A stretch of DNA of 64,000 nucleotides from Peltaster fructicola. Lineage: Eukaryota > Ascomycota > Dothideomycetes. Numbering within the stretch: the first letter of the stretch is position 1; each line of letters opens with the position of its first letter. The stretch spans positions 1,737,501 to 1,801,500 of the forward strand of contig CP051140.1 of the NCBI GenBank assembly GCA_001592805.2, read 5' to 3'. Both the position numbers and the translations under genes were made by a program. The notes beneath the pieces were generated by a model. That model had not been told where the DNA came from, searched no databases, and saw only the letters and a program-made list of their open reading frames with translations. Positions 36,395 through 39,348 of the stretch are shown here, piece after piece.

Positions 36395-38441
36395 ATGGGA
36401 AGCGGTAAGAAAGAGGCAAATCGTCGTGAGAGGCAGGGCAAGACCGGCGATGGCATGAGCAATGTCAGGACCAAGGGCGAGAACTTCTACAGGTCAGCCA
36501 AGAAGGTCAAACAGCTCAACATCTTGAAGGAGGGCAAAGCCGAACGCAATGCCCGCGGCGACATCATCAAGGCCGCCAGCTTTCAGAGCAGAGAAGCACC
36601 CAAGGCCAGAGTCGAGCCGAATCGCAAGTGGTTCACGAATACGCGTGTAATCAGTCAAGAGGCACTGTCATCTTTCCGAGATGCGGTCGCTGCACAAAGC
36701 AAGGATCCCTATTCTTATCTGCTGAAGCAGAATAAGCTTCCTATGAGCCTGATCCACGATGGCAAAGAAAGAGTAGATGGTCTATTGCAACATAAGGCGA
36801 AGATAAAGATCGAAACCGAGAAGTTCTCAGACACATTCGGACCCAAGGCGCAGCGAAAGAGACCAAGGTTAGACGTTGGCACCATCGAAGATATGGCCAC
36901 AGCGACAACCAATGGCTTAGATGCTTTCCATACAAAGAAGAGAGAGGAAGCCGCACTTCTCGGGACACCGCTGGATGACGATATTGCGCGCGAGGACACG
37001 AAGGTACAGGATGACGGAGAACTTACAACAGCACGGGAAGCCGTCTTCTCAAAGGGACAATCGAAGCGTATCTGGAACGAGCTCTACAAGGTCATTGATT
37101 CCTCCGATGTTGTCATTCACGTGCTGGATGCACGAGACCCACTGGGCACCCGGTGTCGCAGTGTCGAAAAATACATTCGGGAAGAGGCACCACACAAGCA
37201 CTTGCTGTTCTTGCTTAACAAGTGTGATTTGGTGCCAACCTCAGTTGCGGTAAGTTCAACGCCTCCCATTTCATTGCTGCTTCAGCATGCCATGTGTTCA
37301 AGTCAAGATTCCTCCCGCGCCTCAGAGCACATCATCTATGGCTGGAATCTGTTACAACCATGGCAGATCAAGTCCTCCACACCTGATCTGATGGCGTCTT
37401 GCCATAAGATCAAACTTCGTGGTTTTATTGTGTCTCGTTTGAGTAGCGATCTTGAGTCCTCTGGACGACGAAGGACAGCTTAGTAATGAGACATACATCA
37501 ATGCTATCCTGATGAAGAACTTCACTGACATAGCACAGGCTCGATGGGTACGCATACTCAGCAAAGAATTTCCCACCCTTGCTTTCCATGCAAGCATGAC
37601 GAACAGCTTCGGCAAAGGCTCTCTGATCTCACTACTCCGACAATTTTCATCTCTGCACCAGAGCAGAAAGCAGATTTCAGTTGGCTTCATTGGATATCCA
37701 AACACTGGCAAATCGTCGATCATCAACACTCTACGGAAAAAGCGAGTCTGCAAGACAGCACCCATACCTGGTGAAACGAAAGTATGGCAATACATCACGC
37801 TCATGAAGCGTATCTATCTGATCGATTGTCCTGGAATCGTCCCGCCGAGCTCCAGCGATACAGCCGAGGACATCTTGCTTAGAGGCGTGGTGCGAGTTGA
37901 GAACGTCGAACATCCTGCGCAATACATTCCTGCTGTGTTGGCCAAATGTCAGACGAAGCATCTGGAGCGCACATACGAGATCAAAGGCTGGCGAACATCG
38001 GAAGGTGTCAAGTCGGACAAAGATGCAACAGACGAAGCCATCCGGTTCCTTGAGTTGTTGGCCAAGAAGGGTGGTCGTTTGCTCAAGGGTGGTGAAGCGG
38101 ACATGGATGGCGTTGCCAAGATGGTGCTCAATGACTTCTTACGTGGTAAGCTACCATGGTTTGTGCCAACCCCGGCATCAGAAGGCGCCGAGTCAGATGC
38201 TGTCAAGTCAAGAGACGAGAAGCTTGGTTTGACTGGCAAGAAGAGAAAGCGTGATGACGGGGACGATGCACCAGAGGCCGGCGGGACTGAAGAAGAGCAC
38301 GAAGACGGGAGTGAAGATGATGACGCGGATGAGAATGAGGATGAGGATGCCGACGAAAGCAGCCTCGCCTTTAACGGCTTTGATGGCACAGATGACTCTT
38401 CGGATGATGGTGATGAAGGAGTTCCGAGTCTCACTGCTTGA
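36395..38441 (+). CDS. NOG2: Nucleolar GTP-binding protein 2 (NOG2)
   Basis: Circularly permuted GTPase required for nuclear maturation and export of the 60S ribosomal subunit. Exons are 36395..37249 and 37539..38441, giving 585 aa. The N-terminus carries the conserved NGP1 region (RTKGENFYRSAKKVKQLNIL and NRKWFTNTRVI). The permuted motifs appear in order G4 (LLNKCDLVP), G1 (GFIGYPNTGKSS) and G3 (LIDCPGIVPP), then the C-terminal helical domain. The tail is very acidic and Lys-rich. The intron (37250..37538) is 289 nt, several times longer than usual here, and contains a strong H/ACA snoRNA candidate, as does the yeast NOG2 intron. Confidence 0.95.
37285..37500 (+). ncRNA. snR191: Intron-encoded H/ACA snoRNA, snR191-like (guides helix-69 pseudouridines)
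   Basis: Lies inside the NOG2 intron. Hairpin 1: lower stem GCCATG (37289-37294) with CATGGC (37359-37364); upper stem AGATTCC (37306-37312) with GGAATCT (37344-37350). The pocket arms AGTCA (37301-37305) and GTTAC (37351-37355) pair with GUAAC-UA-UGACU of large-subunit rRNA. Box H AGATCA (37365-37370) starts 14 nt after the pocket. Last hairpin: lower stem GTCTC (37432-37436) with GAGAC (37488-37492), AGC/GCT closing the pocket. Arms GAGT (37441-37444) and TAGT (37481-37484) pair with ACUA-UG-ACUC, the uridine two bases downstream. Box ACA (37495-37497) is 14 nt from the pocket and 3 nt from the inferred 3' end. Yeast snR191 is known to sit in the NOG2 intron and guide exactly these two sites. 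A third, very stable hairpin (37377-37422) lies between. Ends are inferred. Confidence 0.85.
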
Positions 38442-38694: not shown

Positions 38695-39348
38695 TCAATC
38701 CCATGCATTCTCGATACTGTCTCGAACGCATTTGCGCACACGCTTCTTGAATTCCTTCTTGTCGCTCCGCCATAGCTTGCCAGCCTCGATATTCGCTGGG
38801 CTCTCGTCGTTTGGTGATCCCAGCATGCTGATCACACTCAATAAGATTGTCTCTACACTTTGCACAGGCGACCATCGCTCGGAGGCATCTTCGTAGCCGT
38901 ACTGGTCGTCTTCAGGTGGATGGAGGATCGATATGCAGACGTTGCCGTTCTCGTACACTATATAGCTGTCAGTGAGTTGACTCGCTGGCTAGGTGCATGC
39001 TTACCATTTGGATGGAAAATGGGAGTCTCGAAGCTAAGTGTGGGAGGGTATAGAGGATAGTTTGGGGGAAAGACCATCTTCGCCTTGAAGATGCCTCCTG
39101 TATATCGTCAGCCTCTTGTTCGTAGGGTCAGGCAGATCTATTCTCTTACCTCCGTAAAGACTGTCCTGATCGTCGCTGAGCATCAGCATGATCTCCCACT
39201 GAAAAATGTTGTTGTTGATCAAACCACAGCTGATGCCTGGTATGTCCTTGTCTGTCTGCATTTGCTTGAACTGCTTTCCGAGCATGATGGCTGCGCTGGA
39301 AGGGCCGCCAGGCGACCCGGTAGCCGCCCTGCTGGGTGTCCCCGACAT
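38695..39348 (-). CDS. ubc15: Ubiquitin-conjugating enzyme E2, UBE2G1/Ubc15 type
   Basis: Class I E2 that accepts ubiquitin from E1 on a catalytic Cys. Exons are 39348..39150, 39097..39005 and 38957..38695 (introns 52 and 47 nt), giving 184 aa. Features are an N-terminal Ser/Gly-rich extension of about 18 residues, [38 protein letters not shown] with the HPN motif, catalytic Cys in [10 protein letters not shown], and the acidic loop [20 protein letters not shown] that marks the UBE2G/Cdc34/Ubc7 group. The sequence after the loop ([20 protein letters not shown]) is closer to UBE2G1/S. pombe Ubc15 than to Ubc7. Confidence 0.9.

Follow-up and report, generated by a model that had tools for sequence, protein, structure and literature searches.

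The NOG2 intron of Peltaster fructicola very probably encodes an snR191-type box H/ACA guide RNA

The single intron of the NOG2 gene of Peltaster fructicola, as judged from its sequence, almost certainly encodes the snR191 of this fungus, a box H/ACA guide RNA of about 213 nt whose expression, processing and modification activity are predicted. It lies on the forward strand of the 64,000-nt stretch of DNA analysed here (the window: positions 1,737,501 to 1,801,500 of contig CP051140.1, assembly GCA_001592805.2), and all positions below are counted from the first letter of this window. The RNA very probably directs two highly conserved ribosome modifications. Its identity as snR191 is proposed because the whole Rfam model of the family is matched, the guide pockets are exact and correctly spaced from their boxes, none of 400 simulated sequences contained the pair of pockets, and the hairpin-1 arms, box H and the middle loop are conserved among relatives. 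It is a correct but expected further instance of the published NOG2-intron arrangement. The one detail that we did not find discussed in the literature examined is a middle hairpin with a conserved CGUYUUG loop.

NOG2 consists of two exons, both on the forward strand. Exon 1 (36395–37249) encodes 285 residues with the NGP1NT domain of Pfam and ends in CDLVPTSVA, and exon 2 (37539–38441, stop codon included) encodes 300 residues with the Pfam MMR_HSR1 GTPase domain and starts, from 37539, with ARWVRILSKEFPTLAFHAS. They are interrupted solely by a phase-0 intron at 37250–37538, bounded by GTAAGT at its 5′ end and GCACAG at its 3′ end. The sequence ACUGACA (37524–37530), with CTGAC inside it, is what we take to be the likely branch site. 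The length of 289 nt reported in the first-pass annotation holds for this only intron between the NOG2 exons, and its statement that most other introns here measure 45–57 nt agrees with the two that were read by eye. These two, of 47 nt (38958–39004) and 52 nt (39098–39149), belong to a gene on the reverse strand at 38695–39200, presumably, from its resemblance, a ubiquitin-conjugating enzyme. The exon-1 frame is free of stops between 36395 and 37483, across most of the NOG2 intron, and a gene caller blind to introns would produce from it a false protein of 362 residues. The N-terminal domain stands alone in 119 of the 120 proteins listed (the best 120 of 4232 matches), as read-through calls would give; the query behind this list included the intron part, and the list was used only within a second, biased set.

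The Rfam snR191 family (RF01263) matches positions 37288–37500 on the forward strand along its full length (model positions 1–273), with a score of 43.1 bits and an E-value of 1.1e-7 for the 4 kb searched, or 1.8e-6 for the whole window. No other Rfam match in the window reaches E ≤ 1. The score is 2.9 bits below the curated cut-off of 46 for RF01263, though the model is covered end to end. The hairpins that carry the guide arms are those that carry them in the RF01263 consensus. Among the 20 pairs of hairpin 1 compared with this consensus, nine are changed on both sides and still paired, one is changed on one side, seven are the same and three are broken (17 of 20 kept), in an alignment that is fitted to the model and favours pairing in such counts; GUCA and GUUAC are unchanged while the stems differ.

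Three hairpins were obtained by unconstrained energy-minimum folding of the intron, all on the forward strand. Hairpin 1 (37288–37365, z −2.40), with an upper stem at 37306–37312/37344–37350, carries the left guide arm AGUCA (37301–37305) and the right guide arm GUUAC (37351–37355), both recognised in the sequence and by a pocket scanner. They would pair with UGACU and GUAAC of helix 69, respectively, and they fit GUAAC-U-A-UGACU exactly. Box H, AGAUCA (37365–37370), was placed from the sequence and from the protein tails of relatives described below, and its first A pairs with U37288 as the outermost stem pair of the predicted fold. The middle hairpin follows (37377–37422, apical stem AUGGC/GCCAU), and then the last hairpin (37430–37494, z −2.19), whose left arm GAGU (37441–37444) and right arm UAGU (37481–37484) were both identified in the sequence and by the pocket scanner, the left one also through stop positions in relatives. 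These arms fit ACUA-U-G-ACUC exactly, with a guide duplex of only 4+4, and box ACA (37495–37497) was read directly from the sequence. In the unconstrained folds of both outer hairpins, the pocket arms stay single-stranded and directly abut the upper stems. We infer the mature ends at 37288 and 37500, the 3′ end being set 3 nt past the ACA.

From the helix-69 sequence, we take the target U of the hairpin 1 pocket to be yeast 25S 2258 and that of the last hairpin to be 25S 2260. The arrangement follows the H/ACA layout, hairpin, box H (ANANNA), hairpin and ACA 3 nt before the predicted 3′ end, with an additional hairpin between. H/ACA guide pockets are situated at a short fixed distance, about 14–16 nt, before box H or box ACA, and here the first base of the right arm is 14 nt from the box for box H and ACA alike. 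For eukaryotic H/ACA RNAs, PMC7991803 gives generally 15–16 nt from the modified site to the box, which is counted slightly differently from the 14 nt used here. The first-pass annotation had located AGTCA, GTTAC, AGATCA, GAGT, TAGT and ACA exactly at these positions, and its coordinates are correct throughout. It had also described exact pockets in H/ACA hairpins, each 14 nt from its box, and proposed folding the intron as a check: the folding recovers the H/ACA hairpins without constraint and leaves the arms open, and the pocket scanner returns the same distance for both boxes. Its reading as an snR191 with two helix-69 sites is supported by the end-to-end Rfam match together with the exact pockets.

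A decayed relic, left in an intron that formerly held snR191 while the working copy now lies elsewhere, is very unlikely. Such a history would have precedents, since snR191 has moved out of the intron or been lost in some cases, and is found outside NOG2 in Candida parapsilosis and Kazachstania africana, according to PMC5033589 and PMC4202332; the Rfam score just below the family cut-off could be read in the same sense. Against it, the two pockets are intact, as are the two boxes and their spacings, and the changes in hairpin 1 occur mostly in matched pairs. A whole-genome search with RF01263 gave no match at E ≤ 0.001, with 28 of 272 first-look candidates scored; this negative is uninformative about a second copy because the 37288–37500 locus was itself missed.

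The pocket scanner, which looks for pockets together with their stems and boxes, was also used to estimate chance expectation. Its lower stem was set to at least 3 bp, relaxed from an unbroken 4 bp because the stem of hairpin 1 is bulged and was missed at 4 bp. With this setting, each pocket is found once on the forward strand of the window and neither is present on its reverse strand. Among 400 Markov-1 sequences of 64 kb, one strand each, the pockets occurred at 0.0025 and 0.0775 per sequence, and the ordered pair within 200 nt did not occur at all. The probability that a long intron resembles an H/ACA RNA by accident looks negligible: the whole-intron folding energy is only mildly better than that of shuffles (z −1.88, with six of 200 shuffles equally stable), which is weak evidence by itself, but the E-value of 1.8e-6 in the window, the absence of the pair from all simulations and the mixed-frame conservation detailed below all argue against an accident.

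Relatives were examined through their proteins, since unspliced gene calls continue past the end of exon 1 into intron sequence. Homologues were ranked by exon 1 alone, and all of the best 120 of 2544 matches were used. The boundary motif is present in 120 of these 120 listed homologues. The tail at the boundary begins with V (GTN) followed by S, R, C or G in 114 of them, as GT introns would give, and the remaining six have A at the boundary or end there. Tails of 40 or more residues are found in 64 of the 114 starting with V. The motif tests considered which nucleotides a tail could encode, in comparison with permuted motifs or shuffled tails. The sequence GTTACNNNNNTGGCAGAT, covering the right arm, the lower stem and the start of box H, could be encoded, correctly spaced, by 32 of the 64 tails (permuted mean 0.04, maximum 2, 200 trials), and GTTACAAC in 35 (permuted mean 4.3, maximum 21, 150 trials). 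AGTCA followed 35–70 nt later by GTTACA can be encoded in 37 of the 64, against a mean of 6.9 and a maximum of 26 for permuted pairs (60 trials), and a mean of 10.7 and a maximum of 16 for shuffled tails (20 trials). Raw counts without a control are 55 of 64 for AGTCA then GTTAC, and 25 of 64 when the middle loop is added; bare GTTAC, encodable in 63 of 64, is uninformative (permuted mean 46.5).

In the 62 tails that were anchored on the right arm, it is read in the three frames 33, 20 and 9 times. Since the anchor requires certain residues in and after the arm, the constancy of the arm and of the G or W that follows it is in part built in. This use of all three frames indicates that the nucleotides, and therefore the RNA, are conserved and not a peptide. 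Conservation of the stretch as peptide-coding sequence through intron retention, which the open frame from 36395 to 37483 and the many gene calls ending that way might have suggested, is accordingly dismissed as extremely improbable, the same nucleotides being read in different frames in different proteins. Upstream of the right arm, AAGTCA is encodable in 41 of the 62 anchored tails, a number matched by one of 100 permutations; the shorter AGTCA, in 53 of 62, was matched by four of 100 and is not far above all of them. For box H, ANANNA fits 31 of 50 relatives and ANANNNA fits 45 of 50; in many of them an A is ruled out at the sixth position of the box. The A at window position 37371, just past box H, is more constant in relatives than the last A of the box.

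Conservation of the last hairpin was tested weakly, through stop positions only: among the 19 anchored tails whose stop falls between +75 and +115 past the right arm, ten have V or E as their last residue, the outcome expected from GTTTGAGTAG, versus four of the 43 that stop elsewhere, and the corresponding figures in the wider, biased set are 12 of 29 and 10 of 83. These observations suggest that relatives have an intron at the corresponding position, with the putative hairpin-1 arms and box H. The stems, pockets and boxes had been singled out in the first-pass annotation as features that should recur in the NOG2 introns of close relatives and, followed indirectly through these tails, the hairpin-1 arms and box H are kept. 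A NOG2 fragment was also looked for in viral contigs, where none of the six pattern matches was a relative.

The middle hairpin, which the first-pass annotation does not mention, has the lowest z of the three. Folded within the 59-nt piece 37371–37429, it gives z −3.65, and none of 200 shuffles is as stable. Its apical loop carries the motif C-GUCUU-G (CGTCTTG, 37395–37401, forward strand), 44 nt after the right arm, which was delimited from the Rfam alignment and the tails of relatives. CGTYTTG placed 24–60 nt after the right arm is encodable in 24 of the 28 anchored tails reaching far enough, in all three frames, whereas permuted motifs average 6.2 and reach 24 in one of 150 trials. The extended CCGTYTTGG is encodable in 13 of the 28 (permuted maximum 7). 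In the wider, biased set the two motifs are encodable in 33 and 21 of 50 tails, with permuted maxima of 26 and 9, respectively. The Rfam consensus has CGUUuUG in the matching loop, and four adjacent pairs are changed on both sides and still paired. This hairpin was considered as a third guide and is not favoured in that role: 14 nt past its right internal loop (37427 on), the sequence read by eye is ATTGTG, not ANANNA. We found no discussion of a CGUYUUG middle loop in the open-access literature on snR191, NOG2 or three-hairpin snoRNAs, a coverage that leaves out the original snR191 paper; PMC12389098 presents a model of yeast snR191 with a multi-branch loop and a UUGG tetraloop. It can be suggested, as a tentative possibility, that snR191 in ascomycetes is built as an H/ACA RNA of three hairpins and that the middle one serves a second purpose other than guiding, with the loop sequence kept and the stem changing in matched pairs. 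If so, the loop would fit a contact with pre-rRNA or protein near helix 69, helping one particle to modify two sites two bases apart.

The presumed target was sought in the genome itself. In the assembly (18,987,130 bases, five contigs), a 33-mer of helix 69 allowing up to three mismatches and an exact 15-mer gave no match, and the rDNA is therefore probably absent from the assembly, masked or different in sequence.

The closest known system is the snR191 of Saccharomyces cerevisiae (RF01263), encoded in an intron of the same host gene. It shares, as far as the Rfam consensus reflects it, the arms in the first and last hairpins, the order of the boxes and the presence of an additional hairpin that separates box H from the last one. 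It differs in size (273 model positions versus about 213 nt here), and in that the Rfam consensus surrounds the middle hairpin with an outer stem, which does not form here. The NOG2 location is established by the Pfam domains on both exons, and is not a strict criterion, as snR191 is located elsewhere in some yeasts. The published snR191 guides 25S 2258 and 2260 (PMC8307265) and is reported from all Saccharomycotina (PMC4937481). According to PMC8476143, 72% of the fungal species examined there retain the position of the NOG2 intron, and an snR191-type snoRNA resides in this intron in yeasts and in intron-poor species, among them several smuts and, from the Pezizomycotina, Sporothrix and Cyphellophora. 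The snoRNAs of Ustilago, Sporothrix and Cyphellophora can be likened by description to the present one, with the same host gene and guide; for Meira miltonrushii, that paper rates stem-loop 2 and the antisense element as low-confidence.

Another Pezizomycotina, Trichophyton rubrum, yielded Trnc_4006, a 251-nt intronic cDNA matched to RF01263, which is evidence that such an RNA is made in that species; its predicted targets differ (18S 935, 25S 1239 and 25S 2245 in the numbering of that paper), and the host gene goes unnamed in the table passage (PMC3890542). For Neurospora, the table of 20 H/ACA RNAs in PMC2780460 names no snR191 homologue, in a list stated not to be exhaustive, and contains seven orphans, among which ACA9 (201 nt) is intronic. 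The first-pass suggestion that the NOG2–snR191 pair is kept from budding yeast to Pezizomycotina stands as regards conservation, and the hint of newness does not, the arrangement being already published (PMC8476143, PMC3890542).

The following course of events can be proposed. The NOG2 pre-mRNA would be spliced, and the debranched intron trimmed to an H/ACA particle bound, as expected from its class, by Cbf5, Nhp2, Nop10 and Gar1. Hairpin 1 would pair with GUAAC-U-A-UGACU, leading to isomerisation of the first helix-69 U, and the last hairpin with ACUA-U-G-ACUC, leading to isomerisation of the U two bases on. The middle hairpin, with its conserved loop, would lie after box H and ahead of the last hairpin as a non-guiding element. 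Removal of the NOG2 intron from a synthetic-chromosome strain of yeast had a fitness cost on glycerol at 37 degrees, with NOG2 mRNA and protein unchanged (PMC10667330).

This locus adds a clear example of a host–guest pair kept across fungi, in which the gene of a ribosome-assembly GTPase also carries the guide for two large-subunit modifications. A conserved intron RNA could here be read from unspliced gene calls, an approach that may serve elsewhere when only proteins are searchable. The middle loop raises a small, testable question, namely what makes this guide exceed the length required for two hairpins.
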